DNA of 64,000 nt from Sipunculus nudus (taxonomy: Eukaryota; Annelida; Sipuncula; Golfingiida; Sipunculidae). Numbering within the stretch: position 1 is the stretch's first letter; each line of letters starts with the position of its first letter. The notes beneath the pieces were generated by a model that did not search any database, had not been told where the DNA came from, and saw only the letters and a list, made by a program, of their open reading frames with translations. The DNA lies in contig CM049309.1 in NCBI GenBank assembly GCA_026874595.1, forward strand, positions 92,030,723 to 92,094,722, read 5' to 3'. A program made the translations under genes and the position numbers. Positions 4,394-57,714 of the stretch are shown here, one piece after another.

Positions 4394-4899
4394 ATAGGGC
4401 GTCAGCATAATACGTATTTGAACAAATATCTGTCAGAGAAACTTTATCATGTGAATGTAAGAATATTTATTGTAAATTTAAAGTTTGAGGTGAAACAGCT
4501 GCGAAGTGAACACACTGCTCCCCGACTGTCCCTGATACGCCTGTTATATACGGATATTAACCGGAACACGTCTCAGGATGTATAATGTAAAGATTCAATA
4601 TTGGTTTAGTCGAGAAAAAACTGGTGTAAATAGGCTACAGCGTACGCGACTCTTTCGTTGCATAGAATTATTGAGTTTCCGAGGGAAGAGCCCACACAAG
4701 TAGCTCGAAATCACAGACATAATATACACATCGGCTTATATAATACACAATGCAGTCTCATCAACAGATTTTAATACATGGTTGGACTTTTAGAAAGGGT
4801 TTGCATTTAACTACAAGTACTTTGAAAGAATACTTTGTGTAAAAAATGGGTCATGTATATACTTATGGGTCTTGTTTTCTCGGTGATCAAGTATTGCTG
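4391..4899. other. Intron 1, unannotated
   Basis: AT-rich sequence with no recognisable exon, RNA or repeat until the tRNA-like TIR element that begins near 4900. Confidence 0.5.
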
Positions 4900-5057
4900 G
4901 TGTTACGAAGACAAATTTTTCAGGGGAAAATACTGGGCCGACCCGGGATTCGAACCATGTCGATAGCGCACAAGCCCGGCGTACCAACCGCTTCGCTAGA
5001 AAAGCACGCTTCACTAGGGAGACAGTTCAGTCCGCTTTTATGTCACCCCGTAACAAT
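4900..5057 (-). mobile_element. TIR element with tRNA-like core, copy 1
   Basis: Read on the - strand, this element begins ATTGTTACGGGGTGACATAAAA and ends near TTCGTAACA, so its ends are short, imperfect inverted repeats. Inside is a tRNA-like Pol III promoter: an A box-like segment (4984-4999, CTAGCGAAGCGGTTGG on the - strand) and a near-consensus B box (4945-4956, GGTTCGAATCCC), 27 bp apart as in real tRNAs. A second copy of the CTAGYGAAGC motif lies about 20 bp upstream of the A box. The same element occurs at 37929-38085 on the + strand, with identity over the ends, the A-box region, the B box and the 3' tail. It is non-coding and non-autonomous. It could be a tRNA-derived SINE whose ends happen to be complementary, or a MITE that has captured a tRNA-like sequence. 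Confidence 0.7.
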
Positions 5058-6650
5058 GGTAATTAAGCAATAACTACATGTTAACTTTGAACTGCTGCGG
5101 AATTTGGGGAGAAATATGCCTTCGGTGAATACGTTTTTGTGGTTTGGGAACAATTGGTAAATCATGAGAACTTAATAGTTAACTGAACAGTAACGTAGTC
5201 GGAGATCAGACGTGTAAACGCCGAGCGTACTAGTTATAGTGTCTTTGTGCTCTAGTTACATCTAACTAACTACACACGATGTAACGAGGGATGCCAGTTT
5301 ATCCTAAAGGTCAGATGCAAAATACAATACGTTTATATCCACAACAATAATCTGATTCTGACTTAAAACTCTAGAGATACAAGTTAAACCTTTATCTGAT
5401 GGTGGCCAAGGACACTTTACGTTTATAGATAAAACAATAATTCGATTTTGAGCCATGCAGGACACTTATTATAGTTCATATTAAAACAGAACATGTTGCA
5501 CATTTATAGTTAAAACATGAATCTAGTGCTTTTGCCCAGATCATGTTAGGTTTGAGACAGGAATTGTTTGAAATAAAGTCCAGTTCGGAATCAAGTCAAA
5601 TTACCTTAATAGTTCAAACAATACCCGGGCTCGTGCTAATAAACGATATTATACATTTATATTTTAACCAACGATTATATTTTGCTCAAGATTGAATCGA
5701 TTTATATCGAGAGGAATTATTGGATCCTGTACAAAGTCGCTATAGATTCATGAAAGACAAATATGATGTTGAAACCTGAGAAAAATGGGACCTGCTACAT
5801 ACGCACGCACGGACGCGAGACAAGGCATTTGTGTATAATAGTGACTTATGGCCCGGAGAGGTTGGAGAAAAGACCAAACTGTCATCTTAAAAGAGTACAC
5901 ATTCCAAAGTCATGTTCTGCATGTGTGAAGACTAAGTTAGCTGCCGCTGATCCATTGTACAAGATATTTATGCCACACACGTGGCCTCCGTAGTGGAGGG
6001 CTACCAGCTCTGGTTGGAAAGGTGAGTTTCGGGTGTCGTGTCCCGGGGCTAGACGAGGTATGAAACTGTACTAGCTAACACAAGGGGTGGCGAGGTTTGT
6101 TTGTGGAGCTAGCCTACCTCTATCCTTAATAATAGCGGCACTCAGCAGGCTCAAATAGCTGCTACAGAATAGAAATGATACCGCTACCACCGACCGAGCC
6201 ATGTCGCCCATCTAATTCATGTTACTCCTACTGTACACTGATGATGTCAGACTTCGTATTAAGTCCCGGTAGCTACATCAGCATCACAAACTGCATCAGC
6301 TTCAAAGATAAAACCACGTGACTCAATGCTTGCCCTTCACCATGTGGTTCTGGCTGTCCATGAGAACTCTCTATGTATACGTCCATGTCTATCATGTTAC
6401 TTTTGGTATAATTACTGTAAACTACGTAAGCACTATATACAGCTTCGGGGACAGAGATAACACCTCGCATCTCGTATGGCTTCTTGCTGTTCCTGCTGAT
6501 GTCAGCTTGCTTAGACTAAATTGTTCCTGTTTTCTTTGCCTGAGGTGTTTTAAGTGGTATTTATTTGTACAGTCGGGATGCAATCGTTTTGAGTAAAATG
6601 AAATGTTCCCCTGATCCATAAGGAATGATACTTTGATTTCATTCTCTCCT
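5058..6650. other. Intron 1, unannotated
   Basis: No supported gene. Open stretches around 5763-5993 and 6318-6596 have no domain, signal peptide or splice context that would justify calling them. Confidence 0.5.
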
Positions 6651-18550: not shown

Positions 18551-21500
18551 GGAGGAATACATGGGTTAAACCAGACTTAGCAGAGTATTAAGACTACTGT
18601 AATAACATGAGAGAATACATGGGTTAAACCAGACTTAGCATAGTATTAAGGCTACTGTAACAACATGGGAGAAATCATGGGTTAAACCAGACTTAGCAGA
18701 GTATTAAGGCTACTGTAACAACATGGGAGAATACATGGGTTAAACCAGACTTAGCAGAGTATTAAGGCTACTGTAACAACATGGGAGAATACATGGGTTA
18801 AACCAGACTTAGCAGAGTATTAAGGCTACTGTAACAACATGGGAGAATACATGGGTTAAACCAGACTTAGCAGAGTATTAAGGCTACTGTAACAACATGG
18901 GACAATACATGGGTTAAACCAGACTTAGCAGAGTATTAAGGCTACTGTAACAACATGGGACAATACATGGGTTAAACCAGACTTAGCAGAGTATTAAGGC
19001 TACTGTAACAACATGGGACAATACATGGGTTAAACCAGACTAAGCAGAGTATTAAGGCTACTGTAACAACATGGGAGAATACATGGGTTAAACCAGACTT
19101 AGCAGAGTATTAAGGCTACTGTAACAACATGGGACAATACATGGGTTAAACCAGACTTAGCAGAGTATTAAGGCTACTGTAACAACATGGGACAATACAT
19201 GGGTTAAACCAGACTAAGCAGAGTATTAAGACTACTGTAACAACATGGGAGAATACATTGGTTAAACCAGACTTAGCAGAGTATTAAGGCTACTGTCACA
19301 ACATTGGAGAATACATGGGTTAAACCAGACTTAGCAGAGTATTAAGGCTACTGTAACAACATGGGAGAAATCATGGGTTAAACCAGACTTAGCAGAGTAT
19401 TAAGGCTACTGTAACAACATGTGAGAATACATGGGTTAAACCAGACTTAGCAGAGTATTAAGGCTACTGTCACAACATTGGAGAATACATGGGTTAAACC
19501 AGACTTAGCAGAGTATTAAGGCTACTGTCACAACATTGGAGAATACATGGGTTAAACCAGACTTAGCAGAGTATTAAGGCTACTGTAACAACATGTGAGA
19601 ATACATGGGTTAAACCAGACTTAGCAGAGTATTAAGGCTACTGTCACAACATTGGAGAATACATGGGTTAAACCAGACTTAGCAGAGTATTAAGGCTACT
19701 GTCACAACATTGGAGAATACATGGGTTAAACCAGACTTAGCAGAGTATTAAGGCTACTGTAACAACATGGTAGAATACATGGGTTAAACCAGACTTAGCA
19801 GAGTATTAAGGCTACTGTAACAACATGGTAGAATACATGGGTTAAACCAGACTTAGCAGAGTATTAAGGCTACTGTAACAACATGGTAGAATACATGGGT
19901 TAAACCAGACTTAGCAGAGTATTAAGGCTACTGTAACAACATGGTAGAATACATGGGTTAAACCAGACTTAGCAGAGTATTAAGGCTACTGTAACAACAT
20001 GGTAGAATACATGGGTTAAACCAGACTTAGCAGAGTATTAAGGCTACTGTAACAACATGGTAGAATACATGGGTTAAACCAGACTTAGCAGAGTATTAAG
20101 GCTACTGTCACAACATTGGAGAATACATGGGTTAAACCAGACTTAGCAGAGTATTAAGGCTACTGTCACAACATTGGAGAATACATGGGTTAAACCAGAC
20201 TTAGCAGAGTATTAAGGCTACTGTCACAACATTGGAGAATACATGGGTTAAACCAGACTTAGCAGAGTATTAAGGCTACTGTCACAACATTGGAGAATAC
20301 ATGGGTTAAACCAGACTTAGCAGAGTATTAAGGCTACTGTCACAACATTGGAGAATACATGGGTTAAACCAGACTTAGCAGAGTATTAAGGCTACTGTCA
20401 CAACATTGGAGAATACATGGGTTAAACCAGACTTAGCAGAGTATTAAGGCTACTGTAACAACATGGTAGAATACATGGGTTAAACCAGACTTAGCAGAGT
20501 ATTAAGGCTACTGTAACAACATGGTAGAATACATGGGTTAAACCAGACTTAGCAGAGTATTAAGGCTACTGTAACAACATGGTAGAATACATGGGTTAAA
20601 CCAGACTTAGCAGAGTATTAAGGCTACTGTAACAACATGGTAGAATACATGGGTTAAACCAGACTTAGCAGAGTATTAAGGCTACTGTAACAACATGGTA
20701 GAATACATGGGTTAAACCAGACTTAGCAGAGTATTAAGGCTACTGTAACAACATGGTAGAATACATGGGTTAAACCAGACTTAGCAGAGTATTAAGGCTA
20801 CTGTCACAACATTGGAGAATACATGGGTTAAACCAGACTTAGCAGAGTATTAAGGCTACTGTCACAACATTTGAGAATACATGGGTTAAACCAGACTTAG
20901 CAGAGTATTAAGGCTACTGTCACAACATTGGAGAATACATGGGTTAAACCAGACTTAGCAGAGTATTAAGGCTACTGTCACAACATTGGAGAATACATGG
21001 GTTAAACCAGACTTAGCAGAGTATTAAGGCTACTGTCACAACATTGGAGAATACATGGGTTAAACCAGACTTAGCAGAGTATTAAGGCTACTGTCACAAC
21101 ATTGGAGAATACATGGGTTAAACCAGACTTAGCAGAGTATTAAGGCTACTGTAACAACATGGTAGAATACATGGGTTAAACCAGACTTAGCAGAGTATTA
21201 AGGCTACTGTAACAACATGGTAGAATACATGGGTTAAACCAGACTTAGCAGAGTATTAAGGCTACTGTAACAACATGGTAGAATACATGGGTTAAACCAG
21301 ACTTAGCAGAGTATTAAGGCTACTGTAACAACATGGTAGAATACATGGGTTAAACCAGACTTAGCAGAGTATTAAGGCTACTGTAACAACATGGTAGAAT
21401 ACATGGGTTAAACCAGACTTAGCAGAGTATTAAGGCTACTGTAACAACATGTGAGAATACATGGGTTAAACCAGACTTAGCAGAGTATTAAGGCTACTGT

Positions 21501-21975
21501 AACAACATGGTAGAATACATGGGTTAAACCAGACTTAGCAGAGTATTAAGGCTACTGTAACAACATGGTAGAATACATGGGTTAAACCAGACTTAGCAGA
21601 GTATTAAGGCTACTGTCACAACATTGGAGAATACATGGGTTAAACCAGACTTAGCAGAGTATTAAGGCTACTGTCACAACATTGGAGAATACATGGGTTA
21701 AACCAGACTTAGCAGAGTATTAAGGCTACTGTAACAACATGTGAGAATACATGGGTTAAACCAGACTTAGCAGAGTATTAAGGCTACTGTCACAACATTG
21801 GAGAATACATGGGTTAAACCAGACTTAGCAGAGTATTAAGGCTACTGTAACAACATGGGAGAATACATGGGTTAAACCAGACTTAGCAGAGTATTAAGGC
21901 TACTGTCACAACATTGGAGAATACATGGGTTAAACCAGACTTAGCAGAGTATTAAGGTTACTGTTACAACGTTCA
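18551..21975. repeat. 58-bp satellite array, about 59 units, with 12-unit higher-order structure
   Basis: The unit is GAATACATGGGTTAAACCAG + ACTTAGCAGAGTATTAAGGC + TACTGTAACAACATGGGA, repeated head-to-tail without spacers for 3.4 kb. Units are almost identical except for the junction, which occurs in classes: AACAACATGGTA (A), CACAACATTGGA (B), AACAACATGTGA (C) and AACAACATGGGA (D). Between about 19.7 and 21.1 kb the order is six A, six B, six A, six B, i.e. a 696-bp higher-order repeat, followed by five A. The left part (before about 19.2 kb) is mostly D, and a B-B-C triplet pattern lies between. The last unit decays at GTTACTGTTACAACGTTC. Every unit has stops in several frames and no promoter is evident. 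The array lies wholly inside intron 1, ending about 275 bp before the micro-exon. Confidence 0.98.
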
Positions 21976-23926: not shown

Positions 23927-24697
23927 TATAACAAGCAAATTCGTGGTTTTAATGTCTCCCGCTTTGGGATCTTGTTGTGTTTCATGCTTGATAACAGACG
24001 GAAAGACAGAGTGACAGACAGACAGGTAGAAGCCAGACACTCCAAAACCAATCCCAACAAAGGTGAGCATTAGCGCAATCACTGACCAAAATTTGAATGA
24101 AATGGTATAATATTTAGGAAAATTATTGCACGGAAAGGAAAACCTGATGGACGGACAGAAGAGTGACAGACAGACATAAGGCTGACACTCCAAAATCAAT
24201 CTCAACCAAGGTAAGCATGAGAGCAATCACTTACCTAAATTTGAATAAAATTGGATAATTTTTAGGAAAGTTATCCCTTATAAACGAAAACCTGACGGAC
24301 TGCCAGGCAGAGTGACAGACAGACAGACAGACAGATGCCAGACACTCCAAAACCAATCCCAACCAAGGTAAGCATGAGAGCAATCACTGACCAAAATTTG
24401 AATAAAATCAGAAAATATTTAGGAAAGTAATCGCACGGAAACGAAAACCTGATGGACAGAGAGACAGAGTGACAGACAGAAGCCAGACACTCTAAAACCA
24501 ATCCCAACCAAGGTATGCATGAGAGCAATCACTGGCCAAAATTTGAATGAAATCGGATAATATTTAGGAAAGTTGTCGCATGGAAACGAAAAAACCTGAC
24601 GGACGGACAGAGAGACGGACAGACAGACAGACGGACAGACAGACAAACCCAAATCAATTTCCCCCGCATCCGCGTTAACCGCGTTGCGGGGGACAAC
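23927..24697 (-). mobile_element. CTGT-rich tandem-core element, copy 1 (four core units)
   Basis: On the - strand it starts with a hairpin-forming head (TTGTCCCCCGC ... GCGGGGGAAATT), then GGGTTTGTCTGTCTGTCCG, then four core units of about 150 bp. Each unit holds an ACTTTCCTAAATATTATCYG segment (at + strand positions near 24105, 24252, 24410 and 24570), CAAATTTTGGTCAGTGATTG, ACCTTGGTTGGGATTGGTTT and a CTGTCTGTC run. It ends AGCGGGAGACATT ... AATTTGCTTGTTATA. Copy 2 at 56702-57714 has the same two ends in opposite orientation. Repeated GIGFGVSGF peptides in its ORFs are a by-product of the repeat. It resembles pearl/HINE-type non-autonomous elements of bivalves in layout. Confidence 0.85.
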
Positions 24698-29063: not shown

Positions 29064-31027
29064 TCTTATAGAGTAAACCCTCACGGATATTTGCATTATG
29101 GATAAGATCAAGTTAACGGGTTAAAAACCTGCTTTAAGTATCATCGTGATTGTCTGCATGGAGTATGTAAAATTTATTCCTTTCTTCTGAGGAAATGAAA
29201 AACAGACCTGGTACTGTGATGAAGTGTCACGTATTTAGAGATCTCATCAAGATCTATTTGACACTTGATGTTGCCCATCGCTGAAAGCGGGCCAAGTAAA
29301 CTGTGTCCACGCAGGTATATGACACCTGACGTAGATTGTGACAGCGTCCTTACTCGGCCACCAACCCGCGGCGCTTTGTATGTAGATCTACTCCCGTCAG
29401 ATTCTACCAGCCATCACCCGGCCCCTTTAAACTACTGACAGGGGTATAAGGTTATACTATTTACCTAAAGCCAACTGTTTGCTAGATGTTATACATTGTA
29501 TATATGACAATGGCTTATGACTGGATCCTTGTGTATATGAGGATCTACAACAAGTATATGTTTAAAGCCGTCCTCTCTATGGTGGTTATATTACCTCAAT
29601 AGAGCAGCTCTACCAAGGTAAACAATCCGTATTTTCTGAATCATATACACGGTGATCTTCAGACGATTCATTTTGCGGACTTCTATACTGAAGTTCGCCT
29701 TCATTCTTCATTTTACAATAAGCGTTCTATGATACAAGAAAGGAATTATATTGTTTTGCCATTATGATTCTAAATTTACAGCTCATTATATTTGTGAAAT
29801 AATCTTCTTTAACGCACCGGTTTCGCGGCAGTTGCTTTTATATACATATCATACACCTGTATTTTCTCTTATTCAGTGATCAGATTATTCAAGAAGATTA
29901 TGCCATCTTAATGTCACTAAATGTCTTTCGGTTTTTAGAATGGGTCATGTTTTTAGCTATAGAGTTTTCCATGTATTTTTTTAGGAAATATATAAAACAC
30001 GGTGAATTTTTAAAAATAACCAATCAAGGTATAAAGATATGCATAGCTATAGCTGCTTTAAGATCCGAATGATCAGTTCACGGGTTTCACTGTGAAAACT
30101 AACGAACATTTGTGAGGATTGTCGTAATGGGAAGGATGGTAGCTCTCACAATCTTGTGCTCATCTTGGCTGCGGTGAGATGGATAGAATCCGACAGTGCT
30201 TCAGAAGCCCTGGGCCAAAAGTTCACTGTTTTTCTTGTAGGTATACCGTTAGGTGCTGTGCTTAGCTGCCTACTGTCATTTCAGTTCATGTTACTTTGTG
30301 ATGGTATGATGAGAAGGATGACAGACGCAGCAGACGATCACAGACCACTCAGCAGACGATTACTGATTTTTGGCGGGCGTGGCGCCCAGGTGTCAGATCG
30401 TCTGCTCCAGTTTATGGGAAAAGTAACAAGAGTCAACAAACGAATTGGTCTCCATATACTCAATAATAGTTAATTAGGATAGTATACGCACGAATCTGAT
30501 TACTCAATAGTTGTTTATATATACGTATTCATGTTATGTACTGTTTAACGTTAAGTTTTTTCGACCACACTTTTAAGTTGGTTACCCCGGGCATCTGCTT
30601 CTAATATAGACGGTGAAACGTGACGCCTCAGGTGGCTGAAGGAATGTAGGTGGTACGAGACTACCTGATTTGTAACGCCCTGTTCGCCACAGGTATATTA
30701 GGATTTCATGCTTGTTGGGCAGAAGGTGGATAAAACTGACCTAACCCCCGCGAAGACTGTCTACAATAGGTGCCATATATCACTGGTTGTCTCTGTGATC
30801 CGACACCGCGTCATGGCTTTGTTACCGATTCCATTGGGAGTTGGGTCCCGCGGTCCCTTCGATACAACTAAGCACAAGTCCAAATAACACGGGTCAGCTA
30901 GATGTTTGGTGTGGGATCATTGACCATCTGGCTTCGACTTCTAAAGCCCTGCCAACAAAATACCATGTTGTATCGATACGTGTTGTGAGAATTATATGTT
31001 TGCCTTGCCTCTCTCCTTTGCTGGTCT
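29064..31027. other. Intron 2, unannotated; one open stretch without assignment
   Basis: A 105-codon open stretch (about 30156-30473) contains a hydrophobic segment (VFLVGIPLGAVLSCLLSFQF) but begins at a non-ATG codon, has no known domain, and includes short inverted repeats of AGCAGACGATC. It could be an exon of an unrecognised gene but cannot be supported. Confidence 0.35.
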
Positions 31028-32045
31028 ACGGGTCTAAATTGTTCTGTGATTTCATGATCTACGAGTCGGAATTGTTCTGTGATTTCATGATCTACGAGTC
31101 GGAATTGTTCTGTGATTTCATGATCTACGAGTCGGAATTGTTCTGTGATTTCATGATCTACGAGTCGGAATTGTTCTGTGATTTCATGATCTACGAGTCC
31201 GAATTGTTCTGTGATTTCATGATCTACGAGTACGAATTGTTCTGTGATTTCATGATCTACGAGTACGAATTGTTCTGTGATTTCACGATCTACGAGTCCG
31301 AATTGTTCTGTGATTTCATGATCTACGAGTCCGAATTGTTCTGTGATTTCATGATCTGCGAGTCCGAATTGTTCTGTGATTTCATGATCTACGAGTCCGA
31401 ATTGTTCTGTGATTTCATGATGTACGAGTCCGAATTGTTTTGTGATTTCATGATGTACGAGTCCGAATTGTTCTGTGATTTCATGATGTACGAGTCCGAA
31501 TTGTTCTGTGATTTCATGATGTACGAGTCCGAATTGTTCTGTGATTTCATGATCTACCAGTCCCAATTGTTCTGTGATTTCATGATCTACCAGTCCCAAT
31601 TGTTCTGTGATTTCATGATCTACCAGTCCGAATTGTTCTGTGATTTCATAATCTACCAGTCCGAATTGTTCTGTGATTTCATGATCTACCAGTCCGAATT
31701 GTTCTGTGATTTCATGATCTATCAGTCCGAATTGTTCTGTGTTTTCATGATCTACCAGTCCGAATTGTTCCGTGATTTCATGATCTACGAGTCGGAATTG
31801 TTCTGTGATTTCATGATCTACGAGTCGGAATTGTTCTGTGATTTCATGATTTACGAGTCCGAATTGTTCTGTGATTTCATGATCTACGAGTCCGAATTGT
31901 TCTGTGATTTCATGATCTACGAGTCCGAATTGTTCTGTGATTTCATGATCCACGAGTCGGAATTGTTCTGTGATTTCATGATCTACGAGTCTTAATCGTT
32001 CTGTGATTTCATGATCTACGAGTCTGAATTGTTCTGTGATTTCGT
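31028..32045. repeat. 33-bp minisatellite, about 31 units, open on both strands
   Basis: The unit is GATCTACGAGTCGGAATTGT + TCTGTGATTTCAT. Because 33 is divisible by 3 and the unit lacks stops in the relevant frames, the array gives a 384-codon frame on the + strand (ELFCDFMIYES repeated) and a 397-codon frame on the - strand (HEITEQFGLVD repeated). Variants form blocks: GAGTCGG at both ends, GAGTCCG, TGTACGAG, then CCAGTCC in the middle. Most changes are nonsynonymous in both frames, and no signal peptide, domain or splice context supports translation, so a minisatellite is the better reading. Confidence 0.92.
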
Positions 32046-37928: not shown

Positions 37929-38085
37929 ATATTGTTACGGGGTGCACATAAAACCGGACCGAAATGTCTCGCTATAGTGATGCTTGCTTTACTAGTGAAG
38001 CTATTGGAACGTGCTCCACCGACATGGGTTCGAATCCCGTCTTCGAGCCAATTTTCCACTGAGCAAACTGTTTCCGTAACAATAT
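37929..38085 (+). mobile_element. TIR element with tRNA-like core, copy 2
   Basis: The element is bounded by a perfect 12-bp terminal inverted repeat: ATATTGTTACGG at 37929-37940 and CCGTAACAATAT at 38074-38085. Inside, a Pol III A box-like AGTGAAGCTATTGG (37994-38007) and a consensus B box GGGTTCGAATCCC (38026-38038) lie 18 bp apart, about 9 bp closer than in copy 1 (4900-5057), implying a small internal deletion. The 5' segment (TTGTTACGGGGTG, ACATAAAA, CGGAC, TGTCTC), the duplicated CTAGTGAAGC-like motif and the 3' segment (TTTTCC, CTGA, TTCCGTAACA) align with copy 1 across the full length of 157-158 bp. It is non-coding. Confidence 0.75.
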
Positions 38086-46513: not shown

Positions 46514-47971
46514 TTAAGCCTGGTTGGATAATTTTCCATTTTTGTACATGTTTATCGAGTTTGTTCCTTTTTCTGCTACCCTTCTTTCCAACAGTTCAAT
46601 ACATTTTACTTTCCTAAGAAACTTATTTAATGATGGAGCATCAAATTTTTCTCTGTCAGAAAATACCACCAATTTAAAAATTAACAATATAGTGTCAATA
46701 AGAGGCTTATGTTGGGCATCTTTGCTAATTCCCATGTAGATTATGCATGTGTTCAATAGTGGTAGATTTAATCCATAGTTACAGGCCCATTCTTTTATCT
46801 TACAATGAAAATTTACGCTGACTATATACATTCACAAAACAAATGCATGACCGATTCACGTTCTACAAAACAATAAGAACATCCGTTGTTGTCGGCTATT
46901 CTCCAGATGTAGAGTTTTGCCTTTACATTTTAAAAGTTATGCAGTATTCTATACTGGAACTGGCGCAAATACATATCCATTGTTGTTGTGTTAATATGCG
47001 CAGCTGCATCAGTCCAAGAAAAAACTATTCCCAAGTACACTTTGGAGATAAGATTTGAAAGAGGTTCACATACTTTCTTTTTTATCATTTCATCATATAT
47101 ATATCTAAACTTAATGTTTCTAATGTCTAACCAGTTTTCTCCCAGTGGCATAACTATACGGCCTCTGGTGATGGCATAAAAATCAACTGGTTCTTTTTTG
47201 CCGGTAAGTGTTTTTTTCCAGTTCTGAGGTATAGCTTGTTGAATAGACAACCAGTGAATAAATTGTGTTTTATAAGCTTTACATTCTCCTGGCAACAGTT
47301 CTATCAGACCTTTCTTACACCCGTTGCTATGATATAATTGAAATACATACTTTATTCCAAGGTCATGCAAGTATTTGTTAAAGATTGTCTTCTCCCCAAC
47401 TAATATAAGTCTGATATTCCATATTGTTTGCAACCCTACACTCAAGGCGCTGGCAGGTATACTTGAGGTAAATGTTGCCCATGATTCGAGACAATCTATA
47501 TAAAATCCTGGTAGCTTTTTCAATAATGTGCGTGTTTCAAAATTTGCATGGATATTTTCAATTCCACCAATATTTTTTAAAATAGAAGTTTGGTATCACC
47601 GTACATTTTAAATTTGGTACAGTTTTTATCCTTATTATCCACATAATCCTCTGGCTTTCTAACACACAATCTATATATGGCAGTGTTATTCCGCCGTTTT
47701 CAGTACCGCTTATAAGGACCTCATACTTAATCTTTGGTTTTCTACCATACCAAATAAAATCCACCATGCAATTTTTAACCTGTTTGACAAAATCTTTCGG
47801 CGGTTCTGGGATATTCATGACATACAGTGGCTTTGAGATACACAAACATTTTAACACGGTATTTCTCCCGTATATAGTCAAATTTCTAGACTTCCAAAGA
47901 TTCAATACATTCCTCATATTATTATATACATTTGTAAAGTTCAACTGGTTGCCTTAATCAATATTATATGT
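46514..47971 (-). pseudogene. LINE ORF2 C-terminal region with Cys/His motif
   Basis: It continues after two stops with LWKSRNLTIYGRNTVLKCL and FIWYGRKPKIKYEVL, then GRIVMPLGENW and LRQFQYRILHNF. An in-frame TAA at 46930 is followed by LYIWRIADNNGCSYC and HLFCEC (about 46829-46880), the CxxC...HxxxC motif near the end of L1/Tx1 ORF2. After a frameshift the tail LPLLNTCIIYMGI ... FKLVVFSDREKF runs to a stop at 46514. Confidence 0.88.
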
Positions 47972-48945
47972 TTACCAAATCCCTAAGATCTTAATCGCAT
48001 CTTTATGTAAATTGGTCCATTTAAAATCTCTTGTATAAATTGGACTTGCGTTCATCCTTCCAATATAAGCTGCTTCACACTTATTTGAATTTATTCCAAT
48101 TGACGAACCTTTAGCAAACTTGTCAAGTATATCTTTGATTTCTAACATAGAAGCGAGGTCCTTCAGGAAAAAAGTAGTATCGTCAGCGAAGAGACATTGT
48201 TTAATTTCAGTTTCATTTATATTAAATCCAGAAACGCGAACACATAATGCAAGGACCTCTATCACAAGCAGGAATAAATACGGTGCCAAAGGATCCCCCT
48301 GCCTTGTTCCTCTCTCCAATTTAAAATATCCTGTAGTGTATCCATTATTTATAATGCAGCTTTCAAGATTGTTGTGTAGCAATTTAATCCATGTGAGAAA
48401 ATTTTGGCCAAAACCAAATTTTTCCAGTGTGGCAAAAAGAAAACTATGATCTATGGAATCAAATGCTGCGGCAAAATCGACTGCTAACATAATGGCGCTT
48501 TTGTTTTCAAATTTAGAATATTCTATAATATCACTTATCAACCGATTTGAATGTGATATTCGCCGACCTTTAATAAAAGCTGTCTGGTCATTACCAATTA
48601 ACTGTGAAATGACTTTTTTTAATCTTTCTACTAGTATTTTACTTCAAACCTTTACGTCAACATTCAATGAACTTATTGGTCTCCACGACGATAAATATCT
48701 AGTATCCTTACCAGGCTTTTCGATAAGTGTTATGACAGCTTGTCGCTGACTTGTCGTTAATTCCCCTTCTGTGAAGCATTTATTTAAGCATAGGACAAGA
48801 TCATCACACAAAATATCAAAAAGGATCAAGTAGAATTCTTTTGGTAAGCCATCATTCCCTGGTGTTTTATTACTTTTCATTCCTTTCAAAACTCTTAATA
48901 TTTCATCTTTACTTATTTTACCATCACAGTTACATATTTCTGTCT
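47972..48945 (-). pseudogene. LINE ORF2 reverse transcriptase domain
   Basis: RT blocks in order: KSNKTPGNDGLPKEFY, SSWRPISSLNVDVKV, (TGA stop at 48644), DQTAFIKGRRI, LAVDFAAAFDSIDHSFL (block A with catalytic Asp), RGTRQGDPLAPYLFLLVIEV (block B), CLFADDTTFF (block C, FADD catalytic pair) and KILGI (block E). The frame is the same on both sides of the TGA. It stops at 47972 just after block E. Confidence 0.95.
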
Positions 48946-49470
48946 GAGATAAGAAGGAAAAGATATATTAGAAAGAAATTTATCATGGTCAGTATAAGAA
49001 ACCAATTTCCTAGTATATTTTTCTTCATATGAGAGTTTTATGTGAGACATTATCTCTTTTTGGTCTGTCAATTCTTTTTCGTCGCTGATTAGTTTGTATA
49101 TTGTTGATTTTGATTTGTTTCTCTTCTCCATGTTAAGAAAAAGTTTTGAAGATCTTTCACCCTCCTCAAACCATTGAACTCTAGATCGTACAATCTGGCC
49201 TTGTGTTAAATGTTCATAATACTGTTCCAATTCACTCTTTAGTATGTCATATTCTTCCATGTTGACTGGCTTCATTGAGGATAAATTTTGTTCCGCCTGT
49301 GCAAGTTTTTTCTCAAGATTTTGGATATTTTCACGATCTTTGTTTCGTTTTTGCTTTGAGAAGCGTATAGAGATCTCTTTAATTTTAAATTTAAGATACT
49401 CCCACCAAGCCTTTTCATCCATTTGACCTTTATGTGTTATTTTTAACTGATTAATATTTTCTATTATACA
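48946..49470 (-). pseudogene. LINE ORF2 linker region
   Basis: Charged coiled-coil-like sequence (NLEKKLAQAEQNL, ILKSELEQYYEHL) followed by the well-conserved pre-RT motif RSRVQWFEEGERSSKLFLN and MEKRNKS. It is in the same frame as the endonuclease. A frameshift near 48945 moves the frame before the GKISKDEILRVLKGMKSN segment. Confidence 0.88.
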
Positions 49471-50268
49471 TTATTTGTATTCGTTATCTTTTAGCAGAGA
49501 TATATTCAACTTCCAATGCGAGGGACCATGTTCATAATTCAGTACAGTGTTAACTGTGCATATAACTGCAGAATGATCAGTTTGAATCGCAGGTATAATT
49601 TCTATATCTTTTATATGGGCATTCAGAGAACCTGCGACAAATATATAATCAAGTCGCCTTTGTCTAACTGGATTTTTCGATCGCCATGTATATTGATATA
49701 TATCCGGGTTTTGCAACCTCCACAGGTCAACTAAATCATACTCACACAGAATAGATCTTAGCATGTTTGATGAAGTAAGTGACCTTTTGACATTCCCAGT
49801 GTCTGTGTCAAATTTTGACAAACATAAGTTTAGATCACCTCCCCAGATTATCTGTGTTTCAGAATCCATGTTTAGGTTTTTTAATAAGTTTGAAAAATCA
49901 GTTAAGAACGATACACGTTCTGTTTTAGTTTTAGGAGCGTATGTGTTAATCAAAATATAATGATTACCCTGAACCACAGCTTTCAAAATTAAATAACGAC
50001 CATTAGCATCAGCATGCTTATACAATTCTTTAAACTGTAAATTTTCACCCACCATATTAACAACACCCCTTGCATTATTAGTTCCATGAGAAAAATAAAT
50101 TGAACCAGACCATTCTTTTTGCCAACACTCCTCTACATGTGTTGTACAATGGGCTTCTTGTAGGAAAATAATACTCTCAGACCCACCTCTATTCGACAAC
50201 CAACTGTTGATTTCTAGTCTTTTCTTTTTTCTACCCAAACCTCTTACATTTAATGTAATATTGAAAAT
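49471..50268 (-). pseudogene. LINE ORF2 N-terminus: APE-type endonuclease
   Basis: It opens with ITLNVRGLG (catalytic Asn motif), followed by FLQEAH (catalytic Glu), GGDLNL (Asp/Asn motif), RRLDYIF and QTDHSAV (catalytic Asp-His pair), the full set of APE-like endonuclease motifs. The ATG is missing: the frame is open only from a TAA at 50269-50271. It ends at an in-frame TAA (49471-49473), after which the same frame continues into the linker. The enzyme would nick target DNA for target-primed reverse transcription. Confidence 0.92.
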
Positions 50269-56701: not shown

Positions 56702-57714
56702 TTGTTGTCCCCCGCTCCGCGGATGCGGGGGACATTGATTTGGGTTTGTCCGTCTGTCTGTCTCTCTGTCCGTCCGTCAGGTTTCGTTTCCGTGGATAAC
56801 TTTCCTAAATATTATCTGATTTCATCCAAATTTGGGACAGTGATTGCTCTAATGCATACCTTGGTTGGGATTGGTTTTGGAGTTTCTGGCTTCTGTCTGT
56901 CTGTCTGTCGTTTGTCTGTGTCTGTCAGGTTTTCTTTTCTGTGCGATAACTTTCCTAAATATTATCCAATTTCATTCAAATTTTGGTCAGTGATTGGTCT
57001 CATGCTTACGTTAGTTGGGATTGGTTTTGGAGTGTCTGGCTTCTGTTTATGTGTCTGTCACTTTGTCTGTCCATCCGTCAAATTTCGTTTTCGTGGGATA
57101 ATTTTCCTCAATATTATCCGATTTCATATAAATTTTAGTCAGTGATTCCTCTCATGCTTACCTTGGTTGGGATTGGTTTTGGAGTGTCTAGCATCTGTCT
57201 GTCTGTCTGTCACTCTGTCTCTCCGTCTGTCAGGTTTTCGTGTCAGTGTCATTACTTTCCTAAATATTATCTGATTTCAATCAAATTTTGGTCAGTGATT
57301 GCTTTCATGCTTACTTTGGTTGGGATTGGTTTTGGAGTGTCTGGCATCTGTCTGTCTGTCTCTCTGTCACTCTGTTTTTCGGCCACTTTGTCTGTCTGTC
57401 TGTCAGGATTTCATGCTCTAATGCATACCTTGGTTGGGATTGGTTTTGGAGTGTCTGGCTTCTGTCTGTCTGTCTGCCCTTTTCTGTGTCTGTCAGGTTT
57501 TCGTTTCTGTGCAATAACTTTCCTAAATTTTATCCGATTTCATTCAAATTTTGGTCAGACATTGCTCTCATGCATACCTTGGTTGGGATTAGTTTTGGAG
57601 TGTCTGGCTTCTGTCTGCCTGTCTGTCACTCTGTCTGTTCGTCCTTTATCAAGCATGAAAAACAACAAGATCTCGAAGCGGGGGACATTAATTCCACGAA
57701 TTTGCTTGTTATAG
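56702..57714 (+). mobile_element. CTGT-rich tandem-core element, copy 2 (about six core units)
   Basis: The head TTGTTGTCCCCCGCTCCGCG + GATGCGGGGGACATT folds into a perfect 9-bp stem. Then come GGGTTTGTCCGTCTGTCTG and core units spaced about 147-153 bp, with the ACTTTCCTAAATATTATC segment near 56803, 56949, 57097 (TTTTCCTCAATATT variant), 57251 and 57521. One unit near 57405 lacks that segment. It ends AGCGGGGGACATTAATTCCA + CGAATTTGCTTGTTATA, as in copy 1 at 23927-24697. ORFs of 147-190 codons with repeated VGIGFGVSGF are repeat-derived. It is inserted within intron 3, between the two halves of the HYR domain. Confidence 0.88.

Follow-up and report, generated by a model that had tools for sequence, protein, structure and literature searches.

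Solo LTRs of a probable Helenus-type TRIM with a tRNA-like promoter, and inverted derivatives of its family

Terminal sequences and target sites

The window, by which we mean the whole 64-kb stretch of DNA analysed here, is of eukaryotic origin and contains a LINE, microsatellites, and long tandem arrays. Dispersed in it are two copies of a repeat of ~150 bp with short terminal inverted repeats (TIRs), as the sequence-only reading had described (Table 1). These are homologous end to end (74.7% identity, 162 columns, E ~2e-22), and a similarity search within the window revealed no third copy. Both have termini of the TG...CA type. In the family alignment, homology across members starts at TGTTACGG and stops at CGTAACA, and the inverted repeat common to the family is TGTTACG/CGTAACA.

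Copy 2 had been credited with a 12-bp TIR. The repeat is exact (37929–38085), but the outer four bases on each side are an ATAT target-site duplication (TSD) and lie outside the element. The apparent 12-bp TIR of copy 2 is an 8-base LTR end plus a 4-bp palindromic TSD, a mimicry that arises because ATAT is its own reverse complement. The TIRs of copy 1 seemed weaker because this copy sits in another target. The elements do lie where they were first placed (37929–38085 and 4900–5057), with their bounds now corrected by the family ends to those in Table 1.

Table 1. Features of the window and of selected genomic loci, as assigned in this work
Feature	Position	Strand	Remarks
Copy 1, solo LTR, same family as copy 2, 155 bp	4901..5055	-	TGTTACGG...TCGTAACA on - strand
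Copy 1 downstream flank, probable decayed TSD	4897..4900		CCAG on - strand
Copy 1 upstream flank, probable decayed TSD	5056..5059		CCAT on - strand; 3/4 letters vs CCAG
Copy 1 A-box-like motif	4988..4998	-	11/11 letters; by eye
Copy 1 B box	4946..4956	-	GGTTCGAATCC
Copy 1 TTTT past B box	4927..4930	-	Possible Pol III terminator; by eye
Copy 2, solo LTR, Helenus-type TRIM, 149 bp	37933..38081	+	TGTTACGG...CCGTAACA; ends match family alignment
Copy 2 TSD, left	37929..37932		ATAT
Copy 2 TSD, right	38082..38085		ATAT
Copy 2 A-box-like motif	37993..38003	+	10/11 letters; by eye
Copy 2 B box	38027..38037	+	GGTTCGAATCC
Copy 2 TTTT past B box	38052..38055	+	Possible Pol III terminator; by eye; same place in most family members
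58-bp tandem array	18555..21970		~59 copies, 97% matches
~150-bp repeat array	24013..24645		LVGIGFGVSGFCLSVC-like frames; orientation opposite to array at 56747..57714
33-bp tandem array	31025..32043		~31 copies; both strands open ~400 codons
Broken LINE	46930..50268	-	Endonuclease-like and RT-like frames (translations, by eye)
~150-bp repeat array	56747..57714		LVGIGFGVSGFCLSVC-like frames
Single LTR followed by PBS-like stretch	L008, L012		
Truncated single LTR	L029		
Second open frame of autonomous Gypsy	L061:379-4389	+	MYND zinc finger near start, before RT/RNase H/integrase (Pfam, 4e-10)

Relatives in the genome

The assembly (1.43 Gb, 153 contigs) was searched with copy 2 as a DNA query. 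Forty of 1553 candidates were scored, and all 40 match (E ≤ 1.1e-26). Thirty loci were fetched, corresponding to 28 distinct places (L014 repeats L004, and L015 repeats L007); these are the best matches and no random sample. In 16 of the 28 places there are two or three LTR pieces, all in direct order; the spacer between them is 115–123 bp in 13 of those 16. Four places (L003, L004, L007, and L009) are head-to-tail arrays of the form LTR-interior-LTR-interior-LTR, with three full LTRs and two interiors. A single LTR is found in 12 of the 28: nine are clean solos, copy 2 among them, two carry a PBS-like stretch, and one is truncated. The full element is laid out as an LTR of ~156 bp, a PBS, an interior of ~119 bp, a purine-rich tract, and a second LTR of ~156 bp in direct orientation, with a total length under 1000 bp. 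Judged by its length, the interior would be non-coding and too short for any mobility protein.

Flanking sequences of 4 bp are identical in all four letters in 13 of 26 places, and at least three letters agree in 24 of 26. The set consists of 25 of the 28 places plus window copy 1; L023, L029, and L030 were excluded for an incomplete end. Re-paired flanks gave means of 3.99 places (4/4) and 12.31 places (≥3/4), and none of 20000 shuffles reached the observed values. ATAT forms the left flank in 13 of the 26 places, often inside AT repeats, and therefore marks a target preference, which the shuffle takes into account. The sequence-only reading had tied its inverted repeats to genomic copies ending there, and the genomic copies do end there. 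It had also looked to the flanks for duplications of TA or 8 bp, or else of 5–20 bp; the 4 bp seen instead fit neither.

By eye, 17 of the 18 aligned interiors open with a form of AAATGGGGGCTCGTCC (the exception is L017) and end in a purine-rich tract, short in L022, before TGTTAC. The genome has 200 places (101 and 99 by strand) where an LTR end and the exact 18-nt PBS adjoin, as compared to 0 for a reversed control pattern. We take this PBS to fit the 3' end of tRNA-Pro. The assignment is supported by four copies in which the complement of a tRNA-Pro-like sequence continues past the PBS; this stretch reaches the anticodon stem in two of them (L069 and L082) and extends into the D arm in the other two (L047 and L078). 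These extensions look as if reverse transcriptase had copied the primer beyond its usual stop. The partial tRNA copies in L047 and L069 were not flagged by Rfam, and in L082 the LTR match is missing upstream of the PBS. A pattern aimed at tRNA-Pro genes gave 25 PBS-side copies, because the complement of the added CCA is part of the PBS; LTR-end-like sequence adjoins the match in the first 12 that were checked.

Promoter elements

An A box-like motif and a B box had been reported in both copies, along with a duplicated CTAGYGAAGC motif upstream. All are confirmed, and the duplicated motif is present in most aligned family members. The sequence GGTTCGANTCC occurs exactly twice in the window with both strands searched, once per copy. 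The A-box motif used here has 11 letters (TRGYNNANNNG), and the stricter 12-letter form TRGCNNARNNGG is found in neither window copy. Promoter counts were made on 47 LTRs, of which 46 come from the loci and one is window copy 1. An exact A box is present in 33 of the 47, an exact B box in 29, and both in 23. Among the 33 LTRs with an exact A box, 26 have a spacing of 43 nt from A to B box; TTTT is present past the B box in 33 of the 47, at an identical distance in 29. The A and B boxes are not much better conserved than the rest of the LTR (0.951 and 0.945, respectively, against 0.932 overall), the highest value being that of the first 33 bp (0.970).

ARAGORN and Rfam, the latter at gathering and relaxed thresholds, recognised a tRNA in neither the window nor the tested loci. 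Weak matches to tmRNA models covered 13–18 bases over the B box and were far below cut-off. From its motifs, transcription of the family by Pol III appears plausible, and the founding paper on Helenus puts it no more firmly for its own families (PMC10886601).

Classification of the family

Very probably, the family is a TRIM of the Helenus type, a short, non-autonomous LTR retrotransposon with a tRNA-like promoter, and both window copies are its solo LTRs. The tRNA-like A and B boxes of the 5' LTR would serve RNA polymerase III as the promoter, and an autonomous Gypsy element with the same primer would supply the proteins that copy and insert the RNA. The two LTRs would later recombine, leaving the single LTR and TSD seen in the window.

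The sequence-only reading had pointed out that a tRNA-like A/B-box promoter combined with TIRs is odd for a SINE or a MITE. The combination holds up, but the two classes that it offered do not, as the genomic relatives have the structure LTR-interior-LTR with a PBS and a purine tract. A MITE, here a DNA-transposon derivative with a captured tRNA-like gene, would account for the short terminal inverted repeats and the 4-bp TSD; Ginger1, for example, is a superfamily whose members have 4-bp TSDs and TG...CA-like ends. A MITE should, however, be a stand-alone TIR element devoid of LTR, PBS, and purine tract, whereas the relatives hold two direct LTRs with a PBS and a purine tract between them. 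The tRNA-Pro-like sequence copied past the PBS, moreover, requires reverse transcription, and we consider a MITE highly improbable. The same very low probability attaches to a tRNA-derived SINE with fortuitously complementary ends, even though tRNA-like A and B boxes ~43 nt apart and a size near 150 bp are what such an element would have. A SINE should carry a 3' tail or simple repeat and TSDs of variable length; the aligned full copies instead have the constant 3' end CGTAACA with no tail and TSDs fixed at 4 bp, and the LTR-interior-LTR relatives again speak against it. A SINE may enter the history of the element in another way. Insertion of a SINE into an LTR has been proposed by Kojima as the origin of the tRNA-like part (PMC10886601), and this may hold for the family here.

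A further alternative keeps the element and changes its promoter: transcription would be by Pol II from the conserved ACATAAAAG box near the LTR start. This TATA-like box lies inside the most conserved 33 bp, and the near-average conservation of the A and B boxes is in line with it. On the other hand, the 43-nt spacing (seen in 26 of the 33 LTRs whose A box is matched) and the constant distance of TTTT past the B box (29 of 47 LTRs) point to the tRNA-like promoter, and LTRs of this design are found again in fungi, animals, and plants (PMC10886601). We regard a Pol II promoter as unlikely, while giving it some weight.

Inverted copies

Of the 200 exact LTR-PBS places, the first 30 by contig order (L031–L060) were read for what comes after the PBS. 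An interior beginning GATGAC follows in 18 (L031 and L032 look like duplicates), an antisense LTR in six (L035 and L036 look like duplicates), and a direct jump into an LTR in two (L033 and L034, 60 bp apart and constituting one place). The other four are one each of a jump within the interior (L043), primer read-through (L047), another interior (L053), and Gypsy (L059). Extending the pattern by 6 nt gave 25 places, all of which were read and some of which overlap the 30-place set. Among these, 22 continue into an antisense LTR, starting at position 115 and descending, and the other three are read-through; L066 duplicates L065, and L081 resembles L080. The proportion of 22 in 25 is no rate, as the extended pattern selects for the junction, and the proportion of six in 30 carries less bias.

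The junction sits at 8 nt (TCCGGGAT) common to the 3' end of the PBS and the antisense of the B-box region. At six independent places (L065, L070, L071, L072, L076, and L079), both outer ends are complete U3 ends. Their 4-bp TSDs are perfect in five cases and agree in three of four letters in the sixth; overall, 23 of 24 flank letters match, a value reached by one of 720 re-pairings, namely the observed one. The antisense arm is gapped in L072, ~50 extra bases precede the junction in L076, and a whole LTR-interior stands in front in L071. Flanks are also identical (4/4) at three rearranged places with one U5-type and one U3-type end (L067, CTGT; L080, AACA; and L087, AAAG). A TSD is not judgeable in L074, which lies inside an AT repeat, and the remaining inverted places are cut short or lack clear outer ends. 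The antisense sequence reaches LTR position 1 in one piece in 14 of the 22 places. The template copied was probably DNA, because LTR position 1 is beyond the likely start of the RNA.

The two arms overlap by ~115 bp in L065 (and its duplicate L066), L070, L071, and L079, and over this length are 0.835–0.939 identical. The best match of the right arm among 47 other LTRs is 0.897–0.974, which is above that of its own arm pair in five of five cases. This comparison has little power, because ordinary LTR pairs from the same locus beat the best LTR elsewhere in only six of 15 pairs. In a quick tree, read for tip order only and carrying no support values, the right arms of inverted copies are scattered, which suggests several origins; the right arms of L065/L066 and of L070/L079 adjoin the left arms of those loci. 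By these comparisons, the template copied may have been the molecule itself or a sister molecule.

The inverted copies would be most simply explained by plus-strand strong-stop DNA that was transferred wrongly or snapped back. Second-strand synthesis would copy 18 nt of the tRNA-Pro primer, giving a DNA 3' end of TCCGGGAT. Rather than with the PBS, this end would pair with the T-arm-like B box in the LTR of its own or a sister element. Extended to the outer end of that LTR, the DNA would become a molecule with two U3 ends and inverted repeats of ~115 bp, which integrase could still insert with a 4-bp TSD. We lean, with some reserve, towards the broader view that an LTR retrotransposon recurrently makes TIR-type, MITE-like elements with a tRNA promoter by mis-joining of B box and PBS. 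No description of such mis-joining was found among the titles and starts of abstracts listed in searches of an open-access library. The inverted derivatives are the part of these findings that goes beyond the known Helenus kind; the window copies are ordinary solo LTRs.

Implications and relation to known elements

Copy 2 illustrates that a TSD, when palindromic, can be mistaken for part of a longer TIR, with a wrong class assignment as the result. If the mis-joining reading is true, a tRNA T-arm in an LTR has both a cost and a product. Should mis-joining hold in other Helenus families, the promoter module would be tied to a specific class of reverse-transcription error, and LTR elements would have a route to TIR-like repeats. 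Recurrent mis-joining of the tRNA-like module of the LTR with a tRNA-copied PBS was not found in the founding paper as far as it is drawn on here, and a word search of its main text gave neither "inverted" nor "palindrom" (PMC10886601).

Patterns of the LTR core had 0 matches in viral contigs and 0 in prokaryote genomes. The haemocyanin domain PF14830 had no match in the assembly, a result of little weight since 14 control genomes gave none either. In the same genome, an autonomous Gypsy element (L059 and L061; C3:67375673) resembles the family in having the exact tRNA-Pro PBS and an LTR ending in GTAACA, and differs in that its LTR has no similarity to the family LTR (no BLAST match). Pfam identifies RT, RNase H, and integrase domains in L061; the first open frame of the Gypsy has no Pfam match, and a zinc finger precedes these domains in the second (Table 1). 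With the same PBS, this Gypsy is a candidate helper only.

Cassandra, a plant TRIM, likewise has a Pol III promoter inside its LTR and is known to form tandem arrays; it differs in that its promoter is 5S rRNA-derived, its hosts are plants, and transcription has been shown (PMC10886601). Closer are the elements named Helenus (TRIMp3) by Kojima in 2024, which are TRIMs with a tRNA-like sequence in the LTR (PMC10886601). Among the papers listed in literature searches, no other on the group was recognised; a meeting report names it in one sentence (PMC12859917). Like the family here, Helenus elements have A and B boxes inside the LTR, a length of <1000 bp, and a PBS and purine tract. Animal Helenus elements have 4-bp TSDs, in bivalves tRNA-Pro is among several primers and the PBS is shared with Gypsy, and solo LTRs and tandem arrays are reported for Helenus (PMC10886601); the present family is alike in TSD length, solo LTRs, primer, and a PBS shared with Gypsy. 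Judged by these structural features, the family adds a member to this already described group. It differs in one respect. Kojima found no complementarity between the tRNA-like part of the LTR and the PBS (PMC10886601), whereas in the family described here the PBS has, at its 3' end, 8 nt (TCCGGGAT) that also occur in the LTR, antisense to the B-box region.
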